Shown here: piece by piece, positions 143 through 28,973 of the stretch | How positions within the stretch are numbered: position 1 is the stretch's first letter | Layout of the letters: every line of letters begins with the position of its first letter | Assembly: GCA_001825395.1 (NCBI GenBank) | Contig: MHWN01000019.1 | Span: forward strand, 1-50,198 | Direction of reading: 5' to 3' | Origin: Candidatus Zambryskibacteria bacterium RIFCSPLOWO2_02_FULL_39_26 | GTDB taxonomy: Bacteria > Patescibacteriota > Minisyncoccia > Phycocordibacterales > DATDWN01 | Length of the DNA: 50,198 nucleotides | Translations under genes and position numbers: made by a program | Notes under the pieces: generated by a model | What the model was told of the DNA's origin: nothing | What the model saw: the letters and a program-made list of their open reading frames with translations, nothing else | The model's database searches: none

Positions 143-211
143 CAAAGCACGGTAGTTTATTCTTCTGAAAAAGCTCTCGAAAGGTCTTGCGAAAGTGCCC
201 CGCACTTTCGC

Positions 212-249
212 ACTCGTGAGGTCCATGGTTCGAACCCATGCACGCGCAC
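212..249 (+). repeat. Partial duplication of the 3' half of tRNA-Ile (38 nt identical to 106..143)
   Basis: actcgtgaggtccatggttcgaacccatgcacgcgcac is present at 106..143 and 212..249. Confidence 0.95.
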
Positions 250-760: not shown

Positions 761-777
761 GTATTTTTCGAGTAGCA

Positions 778-806
778 AAATACCCCTATTTCTAGGGGTA
801 TTTTGC
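778..806 (-). terminator. Hairpin downstream of 16S rRNA
   Basis: aaaatacccctagaaataggggtatttt. Confidence 0.7.
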
Positions 807-817
807 TTATATCATCC

Positions 818-835
818 TTTATTTTGTTCCGTTCA
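818..835. repeat. 3' arm of the putative pre-16S processing stem (pairs with 6430..6448)
   Basis: tttattttgttccgttcaa is the reverse complement of ttgaacggaacaaaataaa. Confidence 0.75.
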
Positions 836-996
836 ATCCAGTCTTTCCCGGTGTCATGCCGATTTAATGACTACGGCAATCGTCAATTATGTGCTCAATT
901 GAAGCACACAATATCGACTCACATTCTTCTGTCAAAGACAGAAAAGGTTTCAAATTGAATTATTCCACGACCAGCTTCCGCTAGCCGTGCCTTGTT

Positions 997-1776
997 CAGG
1001 CACTTCTACATGTCGCCATGTAGCTTGGACTATATCATCATCCGTTGAAAGAAAATTTCTGCTTTTATTGGATGCCATGATCCTATTATTCTAGCAAATT
1101 CTTTGTGGCTCCTTCGACTAACAAAGAATCTCCAATAATACGGATCTACCCTTTTACTTGGATTGTGGATTTTTCCACATCCTATTCCAAGACCAATAAG
1201 AATACTTTTTAAGGTTTCCATTTTTTCGAAGTCTTTTTGAACTAACTGAATGTAGAATTCGTCACGAGTTCGTGGAATTCCACCCTCGGCATCAAAAAAT
1301 CCTCGAATATAAGCAATTTTCTCTCCTTCTGTCATTAGTGTGATCGGATCAAAAGAGAAATGTAGATCTTTACATACTGTTTCCAGTATATAATAATCAC
1401 GATCTTTCCCTTCTTTATAGATCCATGCATTCACACCAACCGACATCAATAAATCTTTCAACATATCGAGCCATTCCGGATATTTCTGTCCAAAACGGAT
1501 TCTTTTTTTCTTATTAAGAGAGGCGTCATGCATAGCTCCTTGAAGATACGCATATATTTCTCTCTTACTCAATACTCCAGATTTAAACGGAGTTCGGCGT
1601 GTAGTCTCTGAGGGGTTACTCTTTATTAAAAGAGAACTTCCCTGCTGATTGTCTGCACTTAAAGCATTTTCACTCATTTGGTAATTATACCAAGTGAGTA
1701 GCCTAAGATACACAGAGTTTCCAGCATACAGCCAATTTTTTCACAAAGAATTACTTCTTTGGGTCGCAACAAGTTT
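997..1776 (-). mobile_element. Group I intron in 16S, about S1498, with LAGLIDADG ORF
   Basis: 5' exon GTCGT pairs with IGS GCGAC (terminal U.G); P10 CTTGTT/AACAAG; core P/Q (tgctggaaa, aatcagcaggg), R (cctcagagactacacgccgaac), S (gatatagtcc); intron ends in G. Confidence 0.9.
1030..1713 (-). CDS. LAGLIDADG-type homing endonuclease-like protein
   Basis: ORF inside the group I intron; motif IAYIRGFFDAEGG. Confidence 0.88.
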   Translation of the reverse strand: MYLRLLTWYNYQMSENALSADNQQGSSLLIKSNPSETTRRTPFKSGVLSKREIYAYLQGAMHDASLNKKKRIRFGQKYPEWLDMLKDLLMSVGVNAWIYKEGKDRDYYILETVCKDLHFSFDPITLMTEGEKIAYIRGFFDAEGGIPRTRDEFYIQLVQKDFEKMETLKSILIGLGIGCGKIHNPSKRVDPYYWRFFVSRRSHKEFARIIGSWHPIKAEIFFQRMMI

Positions 1777-2093
1777 ACGACTTACTCCCTGTTACCGAAT
1801 TTACCGTGGTCTAGCATACGCTAGCCTTCGGGTATTCCCGGTTCCCTTGAGTTGACGGGCGGTGAGTACAAGACTTGAGAACGTATTCACCGCGGTATAG
1901 CTGACCCGCGATTACTAGCAATTCCAACTTCATGGGGTCGAGTTTCAGCCCCCAATCTGAACTGGGGCGACTTTTATTAAGATTGGCTCAGGGTTACCCC
2001 GTCGCAACTCGTTGTAGTCGCCATTGTATTATGTGTGTAGCCCAAGGTATCAAAGGGACATGCTGACCTGGCGTCATCCTCGCCTTCCTCCCA

Positions 2094-2238
2094 GCTTTTT
2101 GCTAGCAAGCAAAAAGTAGTTTGATAAGTTAAAAAAGTTTAAGAAGTTTTATAAGTTTTTGAATTCTAACTTATTCAACTTTTCTGACTTATTAACTTAT
2201 ACAACTTGCTTTTTGAGCTTACGCTCAAAAAGCTGGGC
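2094..2238 (-). repeat. Palindromic expansion in 16S helix 39 region
   Basis: ccagctttttg...caaaaagctgg arms enclosing two mini-hairpins and an AT-rich imperfect palindrome, where E. coli has a short helix. Confidence 0.75.
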
Positions 2239-2681
2239 AGTCTCGCCTGATACGTATAACAGACAACGAGGGTTGCGTTCGTTACCCCACTTAAGGGAAC
2301 AATTCAAATCACGAACTGACGACGGCCATGCATCACCTGTCCAACTGTCCTTGTGAGACGGCACACGTTTCTGCGTGCCTTCAGTTGGATTTCTAACCTT
2401 GGTAAGGTTCTTCGTTTATCATCGAATTAAACCACATAATCCACTGCTTGTGCAAGTCCCCGTCTATTCCTTTGAGTTTTAACCTTGCGGTCGTACTACC
2501 CAGGCGCCGAGCTTAACGCGTTAGCTTCGTCTCTCAGAGGGTCGATACTCCGAAAAACCAGCTCGGAAAGTTTAGGGCGTGGACTACTGGGGTATCTACA
2601 TACGTGTTACTTCTTTCGAAGACCACTGTACCCAGTATTACAGATGGATCTCTATGTCGCCATAGAGGTCGGACTATATCA

Positions 2682-3404
2682 TTATCTTAATGTAAACTGT
2701 CGCAACGAATATGTTTCTTTTGGATTATGGTAGGAATCTATCATTTTTTCCAGAAGTTTTTGTTTTTCAATGTTCGGCCAGAATCGTGATGTGTGCGTAA
2801 TATGCACACCATCAATAAATCCGACTTTTTGATAAAACTTTTTCATATTTTCTTTGTCTCTTATTTTTACTTTACCATCCCCTGCATCACAGGCTGTAAT
2901 ACCTAGTGATTGGAGGAGAGTGATATATTCTTTTCTGAGCTTTGGATGAGCACAAGCGAGATAGACTCCACGAATCAGCCATTTAGCTTCATCTTTTTTA
3001 GTCTTTCTCCGTGCTACATACAAACTCACTCCACCATCACAACTAAATGCTGATTGCAAGAATTCTTTTACGACGTTATGTCGAATAAGTTCTTCAATTG
3101 GTAACTTAGTTTTAGGAAGCTCGCCATTTTTATACCGAAGTGTTCGGAATGTTCCAAACTTTTCAGTAAATAATTGACCTGCTTCTTTTGAATCAACGAT
3201 CGCTCGATGGAGTCCGTCAGAAGTCATGTCCAAACGGACACGATTTTCTGGTAATGCAAATTCTTGCATTATAGACTCTTTGAAAATCGAAACAAGTCGC
3301 TGTGATTTATTGGAGAAGTAGAATCGCCAGCTGTTTCTGCCTTTCGGCGACAAACAACCGTCGGTAAAAATAAGTCCAAGTAATGTTGCAGTAGTTTTGT
3401 TCAT
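2682..3404 (-). CDS. LAGLIDADG-type homing endonuclease-like protein
   Basis: LLGLIFTDGCLSPKG and FLQSAFSCDGGVS double motif; located in group I intron. Confidence 0.9.
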   Translation of the reverse strand: MNKTTATLLGLIFTDGCLSPKGRNSWRFYFSNKSQRLVSIFKESIMQEFALPENRVRLDMTSDGLHRAIVDSKEAGQLFTEKFGTFRTLRYKNGELPKTKLPIEELIRHNVVKEFLQSAFSCDGGVSLYVARRKTKKDEAKWLIRGVYLACAHPKLRKEYITLLQSLGITACDAGDGKVKIRDKENMKKFYQKVGFIDGVHITHTSRFWPNIEKQKLLEKMIDSYHNPKETYSLRQFTLR

Positions 3405-3515
3405 TAAGATATTCGGCGTTTAGTCTCTGAGGGGTCAATCAAGCACTAATTTTTGGAGTCAAGATAATACTTGACAATAATAGTAGTCTATGTTATTCTG
3501 TTAGTCGGAGGTGAC

Positions 3516-3635
3516 CATGACAGACACAAAGAATTTTGCCGAGTCCTTGGAAGGAAAGGGTCTCACACCGCAAGAGAAAGCTGTCCTGATGAAACAGGCT
3601 GGACTTCCCTACGATGAGAATTCTCCCAAAAGGTA
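3516..3635 (+). CDS. 39-aa peptide MTDTKNFAESLEGKGLTPQEKAVLMKQAGLPYDENSPKR
   Basis: TTGACA-N17-TATTCT promoter, GGAGGTGACC-ATG, terminator gaggttgtgtcgttccgacacaacctc downstream. Confidence 0.6.
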
Positions 3636-3707
3636 GCCTGGCGGATGCTTTGGAGCGACGTATCGCGCGACTCGCGATTATGAAGCTTTAGGCCAGGCGG
3701 TTCTCGA

Positions 3708-3744
3708 GAGGTTGTGTCGTTCCGACACAACCTCTTATTCTTTT
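3708..3744 (+). terminator. Rho-independent terminator in the cassette
   Basis: gaggttgtgtcgttccgacacaacctcttattcttttt. Confidence 0.75.
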
Positions 3745-4176
3745 TCCAAAAATTAGTGCTTGATGACTTCCCTGCTGATTGCCTGCACTCAAAACATTTT
3801 CACTTACTTAATAATTATACTAAATAAGTAGTCTGAGATACACAGGTATTCCAGCATACAGCCAAATTCTCATTCCGACGTCACCGTCGGAAGGGACCAG
3901 ATCGATCCCATTCGCTACCCACGCTTTCGTGTTTCAGTGTCAGGAGTGGCCCAATGAACTGCCTTCGCTTTTGGTGTTCCCCATGATATCAACGGATTTC
4001 ACCCCTACTCCATGAGTTCCATTCATCCCTGCCATCCTCTAGCTGTGCCGTTTCAATCGCACTTCCGAGGTTAAGCCTCGGGTTTTAACAATTGACTAAC
4101 ACTGCCACCTACACACCCTTTACGCCCAATGATTCCGGATAACGCTCGGGGCACTCGTATTACCGCTGCTGCTGGC

Positions 4177-5059
4177 CAATTTATTCTCATATCACTACGA
4201 GGATTGGACTATATCATCATCCATTATTTATTTTAAAAACAAATAATGGAGTTCGGCGTCTGATAGAAAATTTAAAAATCTCTCTATCTCACTGTTTTGG
4301 AAGTTTTTTAGACTTTCTCAAGATCAGTCTCTGAGGGGTCAAGTATAATTTGGGGTAGTTTGTAATCAAAACAGGATAAAATGTATGGCTGTATGGTGGA
4401 AAGAAAAATATCTCTTCCATCTTTGCCAACATATAGTTTTATATATTTCTTGCCTCTGCAAGATGGTGTTTGTATAGAAGTTTTTATTTTAAACTTTTCA
4501 TACAATACTTCTTGCAAAAGTCTTACATCTGATTGGCTGAATGAATCAGTACTAAAGGAAAACGAGTAATGTGATTTGACTCGATAATCCAATGTTCCAT
4601 CATCCATAAACCAAACTGCAAGACTAAGAGAAGAAACTGGTAACTTTTTAATAGTAGCTGGAACTGATTTTGACCCTGATCCATAGAACAAATTTCTAAA
4701 GAAATCTAATTCAACAAGAGATCTCGTGCTGAAATACCATTGCCCATTATCTTTTCTTTGTTTAGGAGGAGTTTTGACTAGATTTTGAAACTCATTATAG
4801 AGCCAGAAAACGTAATCTTTTTTGCGTTCAGACTGTTTTATTTGTAATCTGCTCGCCTTGAAACCATCATGTTCCAAGTATCCATCTCCCAACAAAGTTC
4901 CTACTACTATTTCTTTTTGTCGTTCTGTTAAACTCACTACTTAATTATACCGACTTTCCTGCTGATTGTCTGTCAAGAATCTCTTATGAGACGCAGCTCT
5001 TAACAGATTTCCAGCATATAAGCCGAATTTGCTTAGAACCTTACGATTCTAAGTCGCGC
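4177..5059 (-). mobile_element. Group I intron in 16S near position 516, with LAGLIDADG ORF
   Basis: Splits ACTGT / GCCAGCAGCAGCGG; P/Q (tgctggaaa, aatcagcagg), R, S present; exact 5' boundary uncertain. Confidence 0.85.
4308..4937 (-). CDS. LAGLIDADG-type homing endonuclease-like protein
   Basis: VVGTLLGDGYLEHDG and LAVWFMDDGTLD motifs. Confidence 0.92.
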   Translation of the reverse strand: MSLTERQKEIVVGTLLGDGYLEHDGFKASRLQIKQSERKKDYVFWLYNEFQNLVKTPPKQRKDNGQWYFSTRSLVELDFFRNLFYGSGSKSVPATIKKLPVSSLSLAVWFMDDGTLDYRVKSHYSFSFSTDSFSQSDVRLLQEVLYEKFKIKTSIQTPSCRGKKYIKLYVGKDGRDIFLSTIQPYILSCFDYKLPQIILDPSETDLEKV

Positions 5060-5285
5060 ACAGTAATTACGAATTTTTAATGCTACTAAATTGGAAGTGG
5101 AGCTTAATCCACATTTCACGAGTTTAGCAACCCCTTATTCGTGAGGTACTATCAATAAACTTTCTCCCTCATAAAAGATGTTTACGACCCAGAGGGTCTT
5201 CATCCATCACGCGGTGTCGCTCCATCAGACTTTCGTCCATTGTGGAAGATTCTCGACTGCGGCCACCCGTAGGTGTATGGTCCGT

Positions 5286-6019
5286 CATAGTGTTTTCCCC
5301 GATCACTCGGGGTATCAGACTATACCTTCATCCTCGACTAAACTTGTAAATTTAGAGAGGAGCCAACATGTTAGCTTGTACATAGGTCTTCTAACCGGTA
5401 CAAACTCTCTCGCGTCAATTTATAAAATTGTACGAGAAGTCGTTACGGGGTCAAATGATAAAAATTTTCTTTTTCCGCCAGTTTTCGAATTTAGAGATCG
5501 TATTTCTTCAATCTTTTTAAGGATTGAGGAATAATTTTCGTCTGAAATTCGATTTGTCCGGAGGTTATCGCCAAATTGAGATAATATCTCAAGAGCGATA
5601 CTTGCTTGTTTCTTTTTCAAAATAAGATGCGGAAGCATTTTATTGAGAATGCGGCGTACGTCTTTGCGGTCTACAATTACTAACTCCGCTTGATCGTGCG
5701 CCACAGAAACCCGCACTTTTCCCGCATTAAGATATTTTTGCATTTTCTCTAACATATCGATATGTCGAATATGTTGAGTGAAATTAATCCGAATGCGAGG
5801 ACGATATAAACGCTGGTATTGTGGAGACTGTTTCGTCAGTATTGCTACCAAAGAACCGTCTCCATCAAAGAAACCTGCGATATACGCGTCAGAAAACTTT
5901 TTTTCATCGACTTCCCACGGTATTGCCTTCATATACATGTATTATATCATGTCCTCTGAAGGTTCCACCGTTATGAGTTGGATTTTACTTGAGAATCACT
6001 TCTCAAGGAGACAAATTTT
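5286..6019 (-). mobile_element. Group I intron in 16S, about S328, with LAGLIDADG ORF
   Basis: 5' exon ACTGAGAT / 3' exon ACGGACC; candidate IGS GTCTC pairs with GAGAT; S element tatagtc. Confidence 0.85.
5420..5938 (-). CDS. LAGLIDADG-type endonuclease-like protein (single motif YIAGFFDGDGSL)
   Basis: Intron-encoded ORF with motif. Confidence 0.88.
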   Translation of the reverse strand: MYMKAIPWEVDEKKFSDAYIAGFFDGDGSLVAILTKQSPQYQRLYRPRIRINFTQHIRHIDMLEKMQKYLNAGKVRVSVAHDQAELVIVDRKDVRRILNKMLPHLILKKKQASIALEILSQFGDNLRTNRISDENYSSILKKIEEIRSLNSKTGGKRKFLSFDPVTTSRTIL

Positions 6020-6429
6020 ATCTCAGTACCATCGGTGGGGGCCAAGCTCTCACTCCCCCTAAGCGTCATTGCCTTGGTAGGCCATTACCCTACCAACTAG
6101 CTGATACTCCGCAGGCCATTCTTTTAGCGCAACTGTAATAAAACAGCGCTTTACTCCGAAGAGACTATCAAGTATTACCCAATCTTTCGACTAGTTATTC
6201 CTGACTAAAAGGGATGTGCCCACGTGTTACTACCTCGTTCGCCACTGCTCTTGCGAGCCGTTTGACTTGCATGCCTTATCCACACCGCCAGCGTTCATCC
6301 TGAGCTAGGATCAAACTCTTAAAATAATTTCTGTGAAATTATTTTATCCGACCCATGAGACGAAGTCTCGTCTGGGTTTAGGATAAGCCCTAAACGCTTT
6401 CGCGTCGGGCAAAATTTGATTCACAAATT

Positions 6430-6448
6430 TTGAACGGAACAAAATAAA
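6430..6448. repeat. 5' arm of the putative pre-16S processing stem
   Basis: Reverse complement of 818..835. Confidence 0.75.
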
Positions 6449-6460
6449 GAAGAATATAAT

Positions 6461-19520: not shown

Positions 19521-19627
19521 TTCTGGCGGCTAGCTACTTTCCCCGTGAGAGTATCATCGCCTCAACCGAGCTTAACTTCCGTGTTCGGAATGAGAACGGG
19601 TGTGACCTCGGCGATAAGCCACCAAAA
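19521..19627 (-). rRNA. rrf: 5S rRNA
   Basis: ggcttatcgccgaggtcacacccgttctcattccgaac..., flanked by complementary AAATAATTTGTT/AACAAATTATT. Confidence 0.9.
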
Positions 19628-20308
19628 CAAATTATTCAACTTTATTTACTTTTCAAATTTCACTACAGGGCATGCTTCCGTGTCGGAATGCCTGGCCCGT
19701 ACCGAGCTATGCTCTGGTACTGGGCAGAACAGGTGCCTGTCCCGTAGTCAGCTTTGCTGTACTACTGGGATGACCACCACGTTAAATCACCAACACAAAG
19801 AATTCAATCTATTTTGTATATTGTATCTAATTGTAAAAGTAACGTTCATGGCTGTATTATGATAATTAAAAATAAATTTTTAATTGTATTCATTCCATGT
19901 AACAGGATAAAGCTCACCCACGAATAATACAAACAGATACTAATCTTTCGAATAAATTTAGTAATTCATTCGTTAAAATTCGTACATTCGTAGATTGGTG
20001 GGCTGGTTCTCAAATTTCCTAATAGAAATCGGCTAATTAGTACACCTCGGCTCAACACATTACTGTGCTTACACCTAGTGCCTATCACGTAATAATCTCT
20101 TACGGGCCTCAAACGATTCCTAATCTTGAAGTTGGCTTCATGCTTAGATGCTTTCAGCATTTATCCATTCCCGACTTAGCTACTCTGCGGTGCCCTTGGC
20201 AGGACAGCAGACACACCAGAGGTCAGTTCATCCCGGTCCTCTCGTACTAGGGACAAATCTTCTCAAGAATCAACGCCTACAGTAGATAGGAGACCAACCT
20301 GTCTCACG

Positions 20309-21796
20309 CATGTTCCCACAAATTACTTTGTGCATTGGACTATAACTTGATCAAGTCCAAAGTCTGTAAAGTCGTAAAGTCTTTAAAGGAAATTCCTTTA
20401 GGGACTTTATGGACTTTTAACTTTCGACTCAACTGTTGATGTTTAGTCTCTACGGGCACTTATGAAGTTGAGAGAAGGAGCGAAGAAAAATCTTCGCTGA
20501 AGGAGTGTGGGCCGAAAGGAGACTCCGGCCAATCAAGACAATCAAGCTTGAACCAGCGCGAAGCTTACAATCCAAGCGCCTAGTCACTTTCTAGTATTAT
20601 CAAGTCCAGAAATGCACTCCCGACTCCACACATCCTTCTCTCAACTTCATAAACTTCCCTCGGTATTACCCACACATATGGGTTCCACCGATATAAATCA
20701 ACTTTAACCCCTCCCTCCTCGTACGAGGAGGGAGGGAACCGCCGTGATTTGATTGATCTCGCCCTGCGAAGCTCGTAATCGAGCGAAGTAGGGGCTCTAT
20801 CTTTTATTTGCAGAAATAAATTTCTGCAATTTTAAAACGAACTATATTATTTTTTGCCTCTGAGGATTCAGATTGTGGAGGAATCATTATATATCTTGCG
20901 ATATGATATGAATCCTCCACGGTCTGACATGCCTTCCATTATTACTAATGGTACTGACTATACTTTTTCCAGGTTTTCCACTTCTAGAACTGACGTGTTA
21001 GCACCCGCCTCTTCGGCGAGCACTCTGTCTATCTTACTAGACAAGTCGATACGGGGATTATCAATCTTATAGTTCATTACTTCTGGAATAAACGGAGTAA
21101 CAATTGAAATAAAACGAGTATAATCGTTTCTCCCAATTGCAATTTTCCATTGATTTCTATCTTTCACAATTGTTGGATGTAGATGATACTTTTCCTTCAG
21201 AAAATCTGCAATTACTTTTTGATCTTCAAAAGAAAACGAATGTGTGTTCAAGGTGATGTCGCCACCATTATTTGAACCGTCATCCATATACCACACTGCC
21301 AACATTTGATCCGAAAAAATCGGTAGTATTTCTGTTGGGAACTTCTTCACTCCATTTTTATAAAAAATTTCGTGAATTATTCCAAAGTTTTTTAGACTTT
21401 TTGTGTGAAAGTACCAAGATACTTCTTTTAGATTTCGTTTCTTGTTTAGCCAAGAAATCTCCCTTGGTTCTTTAGAAACTAAATCTTTTAACATCTTATA
21501 CTTCCACCAGACATACTCTTTTTGTTTATCACCATGATGCACTCGAAGGCGAGCAGTGTAACTAGCTCGTATTCCTTTCGATCGACACTCAAGCCGTACA
21601 TCGCCAAGCAATGACCCTATAATCACATCTAATTGATGTGATGGAAATGCAGATTGTAATCTTCCCACGATATTATCCATTACCTATATTTTACCACCAT
21701 AAGTGATAAAAATGTGCAACCGGACTTCACCGTTATGAGTCAGTTTATTTTTATTTATTTCTTATTTATTCTCGTAAATTGTCTTAAGCTGGGCTC
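20309..21796 (-). mobile_element. Group I intron in 23S, about L2593, with LAGLIDADG ORF
   Basis: 5' exon TTCAT pairs with IGS GTGAA; 3' exon CGTGAGACAG after terminal G; R (ccgtagagactaaac); long P6 extension. Confidence 0.85.
20958..21680 (-). CDS. LAGLIDADG-type homing endonuclease-like protein
   Basis: IIGSLLGDVRLECRS and MLAVWYMDDGSNNGG. Confidence 0.92.
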   Translation of the reverse strand: MDNIVGRLQSAFPSHQLDVIIGSLLGDVRLECRSKGIRASYTARLRVHHGDKQKEYVWWKYKMLKDLVSKEPREISWLNKKRNLKEVSWYFHTKSLKNFGIIHEIFYKNGVKKFPTEILPIFSDQMLAVWYMDDGSNNGGDITLNTHSFSFEDQKVIADFLKEKYHLHPTIVKDRNQWKIAIGRNDYTRFISIVTPFIPEVMNYKIDNPRIDLSSKIDRVLAEEAGANTSVLEVENLEKV

Positions 21797-21890
21797 ATGA
21801 ATCCTTACCCAGCTCGCGTATCTTTTTAAATGGCGAACAGCCATACCCTTGGGAGCTTCTTCACCCCCAGGCTAAGATGAGCCGACATCG

Positions 21891-22120
21891 CTGTCGTATT
21901 TTTCTCCCATTACTGAGAGGATCGGACTATATCTTCATCCTAATTTGAAATTAGGAGATTGGCGTGTAGTCTCTACGGGTTCCCAAATATAATTTAATAT
22001 ATGAGCCTTCCCACGGTATTGTCCATGGCTAATGGAGTTCACCGTTATAGCCAATTTATTTTTGTATCGCATTACTGCGATAGGCACCCCGATGTTGCTC
22101 AATTTTTACATTGAACGTTA
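21891..22120 (-). mobile_element. ORF-less group I intron in 23S, L2500 (230 nt)
   Basis: 5' exon GCACCT pairs with IGS GGGTGC; P10 ACATCG/CGATGT; S gatatagtcc, R ccgtagagactacacgcc. Confidence 0.87.
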
Positions 22121-22306
22121 AGGTGCCGAACTGCACCGTCGCTATGGACGCTTAGGTGCAACCAGCCTGTTCATTTCTGTTTTGTAACAGGTGTGTGGCT
22201 GGTGAATAGACTATATCATCATCCCTCTGCTCACGAGCGGAGGGAGACGGCGTGTTAGCGTAAACCTGTGTTCGAAGCAGGAATACACTCTGATCACAGA
22301 AAGTGA

Positions 22307-22915
22307 TCAAGTCGTTACAGGGTCAAAGAGTTTATATTGTAATGATTCAATAATGAATGGGTAGATTAAAGATTGGAATTTTTTAGTCTCTCTTGCTCCA
22401 AAAAATAACGCGAAACCTTTATTTTTCTTATCATAGATTTTGGTAGCAATGTCAAAATTTTTCTCAATAGTTTTTTGTAATATTTCTGATTCAGTACGCG
22501 TTATGCGACCGAGATAAATAAAACTATTTCTGTTTATTTTGTCATAGTAACCATCATCCATATACCAAACAGCAAGTGTTATTGGATGGATTAAAAAATT
22601 TCCAATATCAGTTGGGATAATTTTCTTTCCATTGGGATAGAAATACTTTCGCCATTTTCCAAAGCTGGGTGATGCACTCGACTGCCATCGGCAATACGAG
22701 TACGTTGCCTTAGTTTTGGGATGTATTCTTTCGAGGTAACTTGGTGTTCCTTGAAATAATCTGCCGAAAATTTTTCCTTTCCACAAAACATAATCTTTTT
22801 GTTTATCACTATGTTCCAGTCTTAGTCTGGCATTCTTCTCTCCGGTTTTTTGTAAAAAACCATCACCGAGAACTGTACCGACCAAGACATTTGTTTGTTG
22901 TTTAGTTAATTCCAT
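22307..22915 (-). CDS. LAGLIDADG-type homing endonuclease-like protein
   Basis: LVGTVLGDGFLQKTG and LAVWYMDDGYYD. Confidence 0.92.
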   Translation of the reverse strand: MELTKQQTNVLVGTVLGDGFLQKTGEKNARLRLEHSDKQKDYVLWKGKIFGRLFQGTPSYLERIHPKTKATYSYCRWQSSASPSFGKWRKYFYPNGKKIIPTDIGNFLIHPITLAVWYMDDGYYDKINRNSFIYLGRITRTESEILQKTIEKNFDIATKIYDKKNKGFALFFGARETKKFQSLIYPFIIESLQYKLFDPVTT

Positions 22916-23088
22916 TGCATCAATTATACATTACATTTTTTCTCTCGACTTCCCACGGGATTGCGCACTCTAGAACTCCTAAAACTTTTTTACAAAAGTT
23001 CGGAGAGACCTGTGCGTGTCAACCGTTATAAGCCGTTTATACCCCGACCTAGATCGTCGGGACACAGGAGTAACACAAAATTATTTGA

Positions 23089-23185
23089 GTCATGATTTTT
23101 TATAGTATCTGCGGAACCTGTGAAAAGGTGAGCAGAAAGAAAATTTTCACCAGAAAATTATTCTGTTACTAGAAAAAATTATGAC
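23089..23185 (-). repeat. MITE-like ~95-bp repeat inside the L2449 intron (copy of 46351..46448)
   Basis: Reverse complement gtcataattttttctagtaacagaataattttctggtgaaaattttctttctgctcaccttttcacaggttccgcagatactataaaaaatcatga closely matches 46351..46448. Confidence 0.85.
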
Positions 23186-23463
23186 GAAAAACAATTCCAT
23201 GTATCCTATTTCTCCGCAAATTACTTCGCGGGAGGACAACAAGACTCTTCTAAACAAATCTATAAATAGATCTATCGCAGAGTCCATCCCCGGGGTAGCT
23301 TTTATCCGATAATCTCCGGCCGCCTCTAACACGGACCGTCGGTTCACTATGTTCTGCTTTCGCATCTGTTTGGCATGTACGCCTTACAGTTAAGCCAGCT
23401 TGTGCCATTACACTATCGCCATGGTTTCCATTCACGGCTAGCTGACCTTAATAAACTCCTCCG

Positions 23464-24099
23464 TTACTCTTTAGGCATTTTGTTCCCTAATTTATATCTA
23501 AGAGATGGAATAATATATGGACTTACAATATTCCTAAACTTTTCAGCTGATTCTGAAATAATATAAAGTCTTAAGTATTTTTGTTTTTGAACATGAAGTT
23601 TTGTTTCAATGTCAAATTTTTTACTTAAAACATTTTGTATTCTTTTAAGCTCATCTCTTTTATATCCAAGTGTATGAATAATATAGGTATTGTGTTTTTT
23701 GGACTTCAATGACCCATCATCCATAAACCAAATCGCTAAGCTCAATGGTGTAAGTAATTCGTGAATAGAATTTGGAATTATTTTCTTTTTTCTACTGTAG
23801 AATTGCTCACCATAAAATTTTAGTAATTCATGTGAATATGTAGAGAAATGATAACTGAATGGTTTATTGTTTTTTAGTCTTATCTTAGGAGTCATTCGCA
23901 CCCAATTATGTAATTCCTTATGTAACCAGTCTAAATATTCTTTTTGAATGACAGAATGTTCAATCTTTAGTTTATAAGTTTTTCCATTATTTTGAGTTTC
24001 CAAATGACCATCGCCAAGCGTAAGACCAACAATAATATCTCTCTGTTTTGAGGTGAGTTCTAGATTCTTTTTGTAATCTTCTATCTCTTTTGACCTCAT
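23464..24099 (-). CDS. LAGLIDADG-type homing endonuclease-like protein whose last codons lie in the 23S exon
   Basis: IVGLTLGDGHLETQN and LAIWFMDDGSLKSKK; 3' end ATG CCT AAA GAG TAA. Confidence 0.9.
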   Translation of the reverse strand: MRSKEIEDYKKNLELTSKQRDIIVGLTLGDGHLETQNNGKTYKLKIEHSVIQKEYLDWLHKELHNWVRMTPKIRLKNNKPFSYHFSTYSHELLKFYGEQFYSRKKKIIPNSIHELLTPLSLAIWFMDDGSLKSKKHNTYIIHTLGYKRDELKRIQNVLSKKFDIETKLHVQKQKYLRLYIISESAEKFRNIVSPYIIPSLRYKLGNKMPKE

Positions 24100-24552
24100 T
24101 TTATTTTAATTAGGTTGATACAACTTAATGTATCTACTTTGTGTCACCACAAAGATCGGACTATATCTTCATCCTTTTTACTGGATGGCTGACATTTAGT
24201 CTCTACGGGTATTTATGAATTAGAAGATGAGTGGGTCCGACCGTACGTTCGGACCCAGATGAATTAAGAGCCAAAACTCTGCAATTTTCGTACTACTACG
24301 AGCCCTAAGTCTCGCACCACGCCGCCTGATGCAGTGGTTTGCAGAATATTGTTCCAATTGCTGGACTCTTTACTCATCTTCTAATTCACAAACTTCCCTC
24401 GGTGTAATCTTAATTATATCAAGATTTCCACCGATATAGTCAACTTTTCTCATACCGTTTTCACGATATGGTCCCCCTTATTTCTTTTTTTCGGTATGAA
24501 CCACCTAGGAGGCGCCACGGATTGAAGAAACGAAATTACTTTCGCGTCCTCA
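23476..24552 (-). mobile_element. Group I intron in 23S near L2259-2262 with LAGLIDADG ORF
   Basis: Splits GGGGCGCTATCCT / CCTAAAGAGTAACGG; S and R elements at ~24158 and ~24197; boundaries +/-10 nt. Confidence 0.8.
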
Positions 24553-24853
24553 AGGATAGCGCCCCACTAAAACTGCCCACCAGAAACTGTCTCTCGTCGT
24601 TTTTGCCGCCGAGGTTAGAAATTACATCAAACAAAATGGCTATTTCACTGTCGAGTAGATTCCATCCGAAAACGAAACCGTCAAACCTCTGACCACTATG
24701 CTACGTATGTCAAACGTAATCTCAATATCAAGTTGCAGTAAAGCTCCCGGGGTCTTTTCGTCTAACTGCAGGTAACCGGCATCTTCACCGGTATTGTATT
24801 TTCACCGAGCAAATCCCCGAGACAGTTCTCCAGTCATTATACCATTCGTGCAC

Positions 24854-24891
<38 letters not shown>

Positions 24892-25704
24892 CAATATTAT
24901 ACTTTCATATAACCTTATGGACTATATCTTATCAGTTTTAATATTCTGATTTTGGCGTGTAGTCTCTGAGGATTTTCTAAGAGTGTCGAATTGTTCTGAT
25001 AATGTTTCAGAAATATATTCTTTTGAATATTTTCTGTTTTTACCTTGAGCATTCATAGTAAATGCTATGTCTACAATTCGTTTGAACCCTCCAATAGTTA
25101 AATGCTCCTTTTTCATAATCCTATCTATAATATCGGTGAATTTCTCAAAATCTTGTGTTTTCGTCGCTAAACGATATTTTCTGAAAAACGGAATTATTTT
25201 TTCTTGAAGAGTCTTGTGATTTTCAACCGTGTACGTCATCACATTATATGGTGACGTCTTGCGGTGTATTCTTCCAGTTTTAAAGACATGATCTTTAAGA
25301 AGGAGAAGCACATCTACATTGTTTTCATGTTGATAAACTTGAAAACAAGGATTTAATATCCATTTCCATCCTTGGCCCGTGCCATCTGAATAGACGTAAT
25401 ATTTTTGTTTTGTCATCGCGACACTGAAACTAGACTCACCATCTACAAATCCAGCCATGAAATAGTTTAAATATTTTCCAGGTAGTTTTGATAGACGGTC
25501 ATAATATTCTTTATGTTTTTCTTTTTTCATTGTGTTAGATGACACTCTTAGAATCTTTCCTGCTGATTGTTCGCGTCGGCTTTTGGATTTTTACCGTCAA
25601 GGTACCAAAAGTTCATTGCGAGTTTTCCAGCATTTGGCCAAATTTTAGAACGGCCCTTTTTGTTTCCCGGCACTTTCTTAGAAAGTGCTGGGCGTAGCAA
25701 AATT
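24892..25704 (-). mobile_element. Group I intron in 23S, L1923, with LAGLIDADG ORF
   Basis: 5' exon AACGGT pairs with IGS GCCGTT (6 bp, terminal U.G); 3' exon CCTAAGG after terminal G; P/Q, R, S present. Confidence 0.88.
24922..25545 (-). CDS. LAGLIDADG-type endonuclease-like protein (YFMAGFVDGESSF)
   Basis: Single LAGLIDADG motif, intron location. Confidence 0.88.
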   Translation of the reverse strand: MSSNTMKKEKHKEYYDRLSKLPGKYLNYFMAGFVDGESSFSVAMTKQKYYVYSDGTGQGWKWILNPCFQVYQHENNVDVLLLLKDHVFKTGRIHRKTSPYNVMTYTVENHKTLQEKIIPFFRKYRLATKTQDFEKFTDIIDRIMKKEHLTIGGFKRIVDIAFTMNAQGKNRKYSKEYISETLSEQFDTLRKSSETTRQNQNIKTDKI

Positions 25705-25710
25705 ACCGTT
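25705..25710 (-). other. 6-nt 23S micro-exon AACGGU (E. coli 1918-1923)
   Basis: Lies between L1917 intron (ends ..AAAATG) and L1923 intron (starts AATTTTG); exact match to E. coli 1918-1923. Confidence 0.85.
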
Positions 25711-26005
25711 CATTTTGTGTAGTTTTTTGTATAATGATGCACAACTTTATTTTATCATCAAAAACTTTCTATTGTTAACTCATTGTCGCCAATGAGATCG
25801 GACTATATCATCTCCTCGATTTCTCTCGGAGTTCTGCGTATAGTCTCTGAGGGTTTCCTTCGATTTCTCTCAGGATCTTCCCTGCTGATTGTCCGCGCTG
25901 AACAGATTTTCACTACTTGGTGGTTAAACCGCCAAGTGAGTACTGTTAGATTCTCGGATTTTCCAGCATATAGCAGAATTTTTTGTAACTACAACAGTCC
26001 AGTCT
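25711..26005 (-). mobile_element. ORF-less group I intron in 23S, L1917 (295 nt)
   Basis: 5' exon GTAACTAT pairs with IGS GTAGTTAC (8 bp, terminal U.G); P/Q, R, S elements complete. Confidence 0.88.
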
Positions 26006-26199
26006 ATAGTTACGGCCGACATTCACCAGGGCTTATATAGTCAGCCTACAATCTTGCGATTTTCAGTTACCATATTTGACCTTCTGGCATTGGTCAGGCA
26101 TCACCCCCTATACATCCTCTTGCGAGTTCGCAGGGAGCTGTGTTTTTGATAAACAGTTGCCAGAGAGACTTTTGTTGCAACCTCGCACGCAGCGCGAGG

Positions 26200-26320
26200 A
26201 AATCCAAATTACAAAATCCAAATGACAAATCAATTACAAAATCCAAATGACAAAGTTTTTAATTTTGAAATTTAAATTTTGAATTTGATTGGAAATTTGA
26301 AATTTGAGCTTTGAAATTCC
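26200..26320. repeat. AT-rich palindromic repeat inserted in a 23S helix
   Basis: aaatccaaattacaaaatccaaatgaca... / ...ttggaaatttgaaatttgag. Confidence 0.7.
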
Positions 26321-26905
26321 TTGTGCTACGCACAAGGTAAGCCTTATTCCGAAGTTACGGCTGCTTTTTTGCCGAGTTCCTTGGGGATCTCTCACTCGTT
26401 CGCCTTACTCTACTCGAGCTGACTACCTGTGTCGGTTTACGGTACGGATTTCTGCGTGTTATGCTTAGAAAATTTTCTTGGAAGCGTGCTTTGTTGAATC
26501 CCTTTTGACGTATCGCCAGGTTTAAATGTTAATTGGTATTCTCAATTAAGAGCTCGTGCGGATTTTCCTACACGACTACCTTCTAACATTTACTCAAATC
26601 CAATAATGAGCTCAACATACTACACTCCGTCATTCCATCGCACACACAGAAAGTTCGGGAATATTAACCCGATGTCCATCGGCTGCGGATCTCTCCATTG
26701 CCTTAGGCCCGACTAACCCTGCTCTGATTGACATTGAACAGGAAACCTTAGTCTTTCGGCGTGAAGGGTTCTCACCTTCATTGTGGTTACTTGTGCCAAC
26801 ATTCTTACTTCACAACGCTCCAGCGTGGGTCACCCCTTCACCTTCACAGCAGATGCGAATACTCTCCTACCGCTCCGCTCGCATCTCGCTACACTCGATG
26901 CTTGC

Positions 26906-27031
26906 TAAATTTAAAATTGAAAAATCAAAGTGTAAAATGACAATGCAAAATTAAAAATTTTAATTCTCGAAATTCCTTAATTTTACATTTTTAACTGTCA
27001 TTTTGATTTTTGATATTTACATTTTACATTT
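26906..27031. repeat. AT-rich palindromic repeat in a 23S helix
   Basis: aaatcaaagtgtaaaatgacaatgcaaaattaaaaatt ... aattttacatttttaactgtcattttgatttt. Confidence 0.85.
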
Positions 27032-27722
27032 AGTTCGCCTCGAACACAGTGAGATGCGAACGAAACCCTCAGTTTCGGTACTATGTTTAACCCCGATTAT
27101 TTGCGGCGCGGATTCTCTTACTGAGTGAGCTGTTACGCTATCTTTAAAGGATGGCTGCTTCTAAGCCAACCTCCTCAGTGTTTGAGAAAATCCACCACCT
27201 TAAGTGTACTTAACATAGATTTAGGGACCTTAAATAGAGATCTAGGCTGTTTCCTTTTTGACGTGTGGAGCTTAGCCCCCACCGTCTAACTGCCGTATAT
27301 TTAATCTTCCGTATTCGGAGTTTGATAGGTCTCACGAGATTGCTCCCTGTTGAGACCTTCCAGTGCTCTACCCCGGAAGGATACGTACGACGCTAGCCCA
27401 AAAGCTATTTCGGAGAGAACCAGCTATTACCAGGCTCGATTAGCTTTTCACTTCTTATCACAAGTCATCCGGTAGTATTGCACGGCTAAACGGTTCGGGC
27501 CTCCCAAGGGATTTCTCCCTTGTTCACCCTGCTCATGACAAGCTCGCTCTGGCTTCGGGTCTGTACCACACGATACTATAAATAAATATAGAAGCGCGCT
27601 ATTCACACTCGGTTTCCCTGTGACTCCACCCCGATGAAGGGCTTAGTCGAACCGCGTAGTACAACTCGTTGGCTCATTCTTCAATAGGCACGCCATGACG
27701 GCGCCTCACTTCGTTCGCCACC

Positions 27723-27806
27723 TAAATTCAAAATGAAAATATCAAAATGAAAAATTAAATTCTGAGAATTTTCATTTTACACTTTGATTTCTTATTTTTA
27801 CATTTA
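27723..27806. repeat. AT-rich palindromic repeat in a 23S helix
   Basis: aaaatatcaaaatgaaaaatt...aattttcattttacactttgatttc. Confidence 0.8.
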
Positions 27807-27890
27807 AGCGGTGTCGAACGCAGTGAGACGCCGCGCTGACTCCTTGTAAGCATATGGTTTCAGATCTATTTCACTGTCCTAATCGGACTT

Positions 27891-27927
<37 letters not shown>

Positions 27928-28162
27928 ATCTCAAAATGTATTTAGCCTTACCGGTTAGTACCGGCAAATTCCTCCGAGCTATTCATGTCTCGAAGTACTC
28001 AAGAACAGAAACAAAGAAGATATTATATTTTCACTTACGGGACCATTACCCTCTAGGGTCGCGCTTTCCAGCGCGTTCAGTTAACATAATATTTTTTAAC
28101 TCCTCTCATAATAAATTATGACGTTTCTGCCTTACAACCCCACGCAACTAACCGAAGTTCGT

Positions 28163-28256
28163 TGCAAGTCTATAAAGTCAAAAGTTTATAAAGTCCTTAA
28201 AGTGGGATGCAAATGCATTTCACTTTATAACTTTACAGACTTTAAGGACTTTCGAC
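28163..28256. repeat. AAAGTC/GACTTT palindromic repeat in a 23S helix
   Basis: gtctataaagtcaaaagtttataaagtccttaaagtg...cactttataactttacagactttaaggactttcgac. Confidence 0.85.
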
Positions 28257-28427
28257 TCGCATCTTACCTCAGTAAGGTGCGTGGTTTGGGCTTTTGCGTT
28301 TTCGCTCGCCGCTACTTGCGCAATTCTTATTAGTCTTTTTTCCTCCAGGTACTGAAATGTTTTACTTCCCTGGGTGTACTCTGTACATAATCTGCACAGT
28401 TCCAACACCTCACACAAGATTGATGTT

Positions 28428-28545
28428 CAAAATCAAAATTTAAAAATCAAAGTGTAAAATGACAATGCAAAATTAAAAATTTTTAATTCTATAATTTTAC
28501 ATTTTCAACTGTCATTTTTATTTTTGATATTTACATTTTACATTT
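28428..28545. repeat. AT-rich palindromic repeat in a 23S helix
   Basis: Near-identical to 26906..27031. Confidence 0.85.
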
Positions 28546-28973
28546 CAAGCATCTCACCTCTGTGAGATGTTGGAGGGTTTCCCCATTCAGAGATTTCCGG
28601 ATCGCAGGTTGCTAGGCACCTCCCCGAAACTTATCGCAGCCATGCTACGTCTTTCATCGCCATTTTGAGTCAAGGCATCCACCATACGCTCTTAAATTTC
28701 CCATTAGGAAATTTAAAAACCACATGACTGCAAAATATCACCACTGATACTTTGTAATCATTTACCCCAGTAGTAGAGCAAGGCTCACTACAGGGTTTCA
28801 CTTTATCCTGTTACATAAAATTAATATGTAACACTTTTACTTACTTTTACCTACTCCATCTACACTCGAAAAGACCCCAGTCTTTTATTAAAGTGCGATG
28901 GTATGAAGTTTTCAAATAACTTTCTTTTCTGAAATTTCACTTTTCACCCATCCGAAGAATTGGGGTTGCGGAA

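Follow-up and report, generated by a model that had tools for sequence, protein, structure and literature searches.

Loss of the anti-Shine-Dalgarno sequence across an order of Patescibacteria, with a covarying 16S tail and promoter spacing that suggests leaderless initiation

We have analysed a window of 50,198 bases, the whole contig C19 (MHWN01000019.1) of a 611,437-base draft genome of Candidatus Zambryskibacteria bacterium RIFCSPLOWO2_02_FULL_39_26 (28 contigs, 92.6% complete; G000 below), and found that its 16S ribosomal RNA (rRNA) gene lacks the anti-Shine-Dalgarno (aSD) sequence, the short stretch by which nearly all bacteria find where a message starts. Judged from the tails compared, this loss is derived and fixed in the order of the genome, the Nomura-/Taylor-/Zambryskibacteria group of Patescibacteria. 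We consider it very likely that the aSD was lost in the ancestor of the order, that translation there starts independently of the Shine-Dalgarno (SD) motif and largely on leaderless messenger RNAs (mRNAs), and that a covarying element has taken over the 16S tail.

The 16S gene lies on the minus strand, where three Rfam SSU_rRNA_bacteria matches (5011-6326, 3821-4290 and 1728-2694) are separated by introns, and its last exon (996..949) reads AACAAGGCACGGCTAGCGGAAGCTGGTCGTGGAATAATTCAATTTGAA. The original prediction for this DNA had described helix 45 with its GGAA loop as intact and the universal tail as replaced, and both descriptions hold. AACAAGG, the intact helix 45 and TGGA occupy 964..996 (minus strand; the helix 45 pattern is present in 115 of 148 relatives), the gene ends downstream of the helix in GGAAUAAUUCAAUUUGAA, and the expected GGAUCACCUCCUU is missing. 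At 949..963 (minus strand) the replacement tail ATAATTCAATTTGAA stands instead of TCACCTCCTTTCT, with an inverted repeat TTCA/TGAA at 949-959. A processing stem had been proposed at 818..835, with no CCUCC before it. The stem is real: its 3' half (TTGAACGGAACAAAATAAAGGA, 815..836) is complementary to a 5' half upstream of the 16S 5' end (TTCTTTATTTTGTTCCGTTCAA, 6430..6451), both on the minus strand and with about 20 Watson-Crick pairs, and the closed relative G018 has the same stem. The lack of CCTCC extends beyond it, from helix 45 (from 963) to an intrinsic-terminator-like hairpin (GCAAAATACCCCTAGAAATAGGGGTATTTTGC, 775..806, minus strand) that closes the 16S transcription unit. Accordingly, a cis-spliced exon could not supply the motif.

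Since the genome is a draft in many contigs and its 16S gene has several introns, this picture might have come from faulty assembly or binning, from a second 16S copy that was overlooked, or from a CCUCC-bearing 3' exon that escaped notice; we regard such an artefact as extremely improbable. The 611-kb genome holds no second rrs copy, and closed relatives are likewise single-copy without CCUCC, among them G018 (single contig, 100% complete), whose one rrs has an aSD-less tail. A hidden 3' exon or second intron was rejected because the window has no CCTCC ahead of either the stem or the terminator, and the 40 relatives in which a trailer stem could be identified have none ahead of it either. 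The tail recurs in independently assembled genomes of the genus and the order, and the state is common to 134 genomes from many assemblies.

The first 30 relatives read were all without CCUCC, and in most of them the helix 44 strand runs straight into AACAAGG, with no intron at E. coli position 1498 (S1498). The intron of the window at that site is missing from most relatives having the same tail type, and an intron-linked oddity was therefore rejected. In the order survey, 217 genomes were scanned with matches in 134, and a pattern scan of named genomes matched Candidatus Nomurabacteria, Taylorbacteria, Zambryskibacteria and Paceibacter. The 134 compiled tails comprise 98 distinct sequences; none contains CCUCC, and they share a replacement consensus, which supports the predicted aSD loss and places it across the order and not in one genome. 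Outside the class, in the same phylum, almost all tails have the canonical form, TCACCTCCTTTCTAAGGAG or TCACCTCCTTTCTAGGGAG, indicating that the loss is derived. The other families of the class form a mosaic of canonical tails, tails changed in one step (TCATCTCCTTTCTAGGGAGT) and fully changed tails (AACATTTCTTTTTAGGGAATA, TTTTCTCCTTTTAAGGATTT), and both tail states occur within family f139 (G407 canonical, G399 not). By parsimony on taxonomy labels, the aSD was probably lost more than once in the class.

Two tails did not match their genomes. One order genome contains a CCTCC-tailed 16S of foreign type (G143:C6:265-317) and also its own order-type tail, so that contamination is the likely source of the canonical copy; conversely, an order-type tail lies inside a foreign genome (G544:C1:5405-5457). 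Both are probably binning contamination in public metagenome-assembled genomes. Separately, in family f201 of another class of the phylum, the tail GGAATACCGCCTTTACAGAGGC (G453:C24:4457-4509) and a similar one (G611:C4:145886-145938) have CCGCC as core where CCUCC is expected, together with a compensated GCCU/AGGC hairpin, and are candidates for an aSD of altered specificity.

Canonical relatives have a short pre-16S hairpin, CUCCUU-UCU-AAGGAG (-5.9 kcal/mol), which masks the aSD and contains its CUCC in one arm. In the order, the arms of the inverted repeat are mostly UUCA and UGAA, with UUCC and GGAA as the alternative, and they change together: an arm UUCA is followed downstream by UGA in 53 cases and by GGA in 1, an arm UCC by UGA in 2 and by GGA in 16 (many families; Fisher p=6e-13, a value that ignores phylogeny and whose significance is inflated by relatedness). 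In two families GUCA is matched with UGAC, and a further family has AUC opposite GAU. Of the 98 distinct order tails, 58 have a stem of at least 4 bp, compared with 14 expected from shuffles, and stems of at least 5 bp are found in 22 of 66 eroded tails of other families, compared with about 8. These tails show that pairing has been kept by compensatory change at the site of the aSD hairpin while CCUCC was lost. The likeness to the canonical pre-16S 3' hairpin of other Patescibacteria (CUCCUUUCUAAGGAG) lies in the position directly after helix 45 and in the paired arms; the arms of the order differ in that they are without CUCC and hold the pairing with different bases. The inverted repeat most likely serves maturation or protection of the pre-16S 3' end, or assembly.

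On the other hand, the tail may belong to the precursor only, with mature 16S trimmed to just after helix 45 so that UUCAAUUUGAA/AAUAAUUCAAUUUGAA is excluded and the repeat, as a pure processing signal, never enters the ribosome. We see this as possible but lean against it. The repeat occupies the site of the canonical hairpin, whose 3' half would be removed during maturation, and the covariation preserves pairing and not sequence; both favour this account. However, the positions straight after helix 45 (AWTAWTTCA) are conserved over the order at 0.75-2 bits, which is beyond the need of a mere spacer. The trimmed-tail account is compatible with aSD loss in any case.

For the starts of genes, open reading frames (ORFs) were called without any SD model, the leftmost ATG was taken as start, and GGAGG/AGGAG was counted upstream of the ORFs and in a control stretch. 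SD was not above background in G000 (5 of 276 upstream regions versus 1 in the control, p=0.22) or in a pool of 20 order genomes (11 versus 5 of 339, p=0.2). The closed relative G254, used as a positive control, gave 38 versus 6 of 330 (p=4e-7). The top motif upstream of ORFs in G000 was TATAAT, with its peak exactly at -12 to -7, and the enriched motifs TATAAT, TGATAT and TATACT are -10 promoter boxes. Scored with at most one mismatch to TATAAT and with internal ATGs as control, a -10 box at leaderless spacing precedes 72 of 276 ORFs in G000 (26.1%) compared with 23 of 1305 internal ATGs (1.8%, p=1e-38), and the corresponding values for G018 are 15.2% and 1.5%. For G000 genes that lack a close upstream neighbour, the frequency of such boxes comes to 26.2%, and the control stretch gives 2.4%. 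In the order pool it reaches 16.8%, compared with 8.4% in canonical relatives of the class (p=0.0014). A -10 box ending about 6 nucleotides before AUG places the transcription start on the AUG, so that a leaderless mRNA is expected; we infer that the mRNAs of many genes are probably leaderless.

It could also be supposed that the new tail is itself an anti-SD of altered specificity, pairing with a new SD-like motif, and the conservation of the tail within the order would suit that idea. However, start codons are not preceded by an excess of k-mers complementary to this tail (z is 0.6 and -1.6 for G000 and negative for both G018 and the order pool), and the motifs that are enriched are the promoter boxes. 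We consider such a retuned pairing very unlikely.

Several points weigh against the reading of ancestral aSD loss with largely leaderless initiation. The mature 3' end, the transcription starts and the mode of initiation are predicted here from DNA, the ORF starts depend on the leftmost-ATG choice, and a single loss in the ancestor of the order is deduced from taxonomy labels. To the relatedness behind the covariation test is added that the mini-hairpin of the window is not stable alone (minimum free energy 0 kcal/mol; folding of relatives' tails gave -4.4 kcal/mol for an eroded and -5.9 kcal/mol for a canonical one), so that the hairpin form is read from the covariation. G254 (family f112), which is without CCUCC, still has SD-like motifs. 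SD is also rare in class relatives that keep CCUCC (5.5% versus 1.0%), indicating only a loose coupling between the loss of SD and that of the aSD. The tail of G254 itself (AACAATTCTTTTAGGAATT, on G254:C1) is accompanied by enrichment of AAAGGA/AGGAGG at the SD position, and AAAGGAG could pair with UUCUUUU through two G-U pairs, perhaps an intermediate stage.

The rarity of SD in CCUCC-bearing relatives also favours neutral decay, in which the class already made hardly any use of SD, the aSD drifted with no new mechanism involved, and leaderless promoters characterise the group in general and are not a compensation. These relatives do show some leaderless-spaced boxes (8.4% versus 4.2% in the control; 9.5% in G311). 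Against this stands that the aSD-less order has roughly double the frequency of boxes of the leaderless type, by the comparison given above. Neutral decay is a serious possibility to which we give somewhat less than an even chance; it mostly concerns the cause and is not in conflict with aSD loss.

Initiation and maturation factors did not give a simple cause. Loss of IF3 or S1 as the cause was rejected, since 35 of 37 genomes have infC (IF3) and 36 of 37 have an S1-like protein. Era, which recognises GAUCACCUCC, scored below the cut-off in all tested genomes of the class, and it has reportedly been lost in most of the Candidate Phyla Radiation (CPR) (PMC10582724). Considering that canonical class relatives are included in this result, Era loss as a specific trigger was rejected; it may permit aSD loss but does not explain it. 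Matches to bS21 are weak or missing in the order, and they are weak and patchy in aSD-containing and aSD-less members of the class alike, so that bS21 is not a clean correlate of the tail state.

Under the reading of ancestral aSD loss, the common ancestor of the order, with Nomura-, Taylor- and Zambryskibacteria among its descendants, would have lost the aSD, and all sampled descendants are without it. The primary sequence of the aSD hairpin is gone, while a short inverted repeat (UUCA..UGAA, UUCC..GGAA or GUCA..UGAC) has been preserved at the same place and most likely acts in maturation or protection of the pre-16S 3' end. The 30S subunits would choose start codons with no pairing between mRNA and 16S. 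Many first-in-operon genes, with a -10 box ending about 6 nucleotides before AUG, would give leaderless mRNAs. Genes inside operons start only a few nucleotides from the stop codon of the gene before, and these probably depend on coupling and on A/U-rich starts. We give an even chance to the fuller account in which the whole, widespread order gave up mRNA-16S pairing, the covarying element acts in Era-independent maturation of the 16S 3' end, initiation is leaderless and coupled, and the sister families retain intermediate stages of aSD loss.

This kind of phenomenon is already known, the CPR included. Bacteria without an aSD have been described (PMC6107228), and a survey of 2024 names 112 SD-scarce organisms without CCUCC, including one Campbellbacteria, one Wolfebacteria, two Absconditabacteria and one Peribacter genome (PMC10783764); Flavobacteriia, Hodgkinia, Carsonella and haemotrophic Mycoplasma are aSD-less, SD-scarce examples (PMC6107228; PMC10783764). 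The present order resembles them, CPR members among them, in a 16S without CCUCC and mRNAs without SD. It differs in that the loss is fixed in a whole diverse order, the tail is conserved and covarying, and -10 boxes stand at leaderless spacing. SD-independent initiation is also shared with the ribosomes of Bacteroidia and Flavobacterium, but most Bacteroidia retain the aSD, sequestered by bS21/bS18/bS6 (PMC9976891, PMC8710568). In the present order, in contrast, the aSD sequence itself is missing and bS21 matches are weak or missing. Mycobacterium and Deinococcus-Thermus, which use leaderless mRNAs, have both the aSD and a substantial class of genes with SD, whereas SD here is at background. 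What the order has in common with these two groups is a -10 box that places the transcription start at AUG (Mycobacterium PMC4633059, Deinococcus-Thermus PMC12340547). We found no prior report of order-wide fixation, a covarying tail and leaderless promoters in the mainly open-access literature, and an earlier report is possible.

The rest of the window contains further features around the rRNA genes. The intron at position 1498 (997..1776, minus strand) is of group I type and contains the ORF 1030-1713, as judged from an Rfam Intron_gpI match at 1476-1786 together with the exon junction. The remainder of the 16S gene (1777..6326, minus strand; Rfam SSU_rRNA_bacteria) is broken by further ORF-bearing insertions, giving four in the one gene (ORFs 1030-1713, 2682-3404, 4308-4937 and 5420-5938, minus strand), and by an AT-rich insertion of about 137 nucleotides with no ORF near 2100-2230. 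The 16S unit (775-6451) is unlinked from 23S-5S (19521-28691), with about 13 kb of other genes between them, and the 23S rRNA gene (20029-28691, minus strand) is also split by several group I introns (Rfam matches 21903-22101, 24137-24508 and 25779-26052). A transfer RNA (tRNA) gene, tRNA-Ile(GAT), lies at 70-143 on the plus strand, and a second copy of its 3' half follows at about 211-249 (plus strand).

In summary, nearly all bacteria are assumed to have the aSD, and gene finders as well as annotation rules for the 16S end incorporate it; start-site prediction with an SD model will fail in these genomes. An order of many families without an aSD, beside intermediate sister families, makes the question of what maintains the aSD testable by comparison. 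The order also reveals which role preserves the 16S tail after SD pairing is gone.
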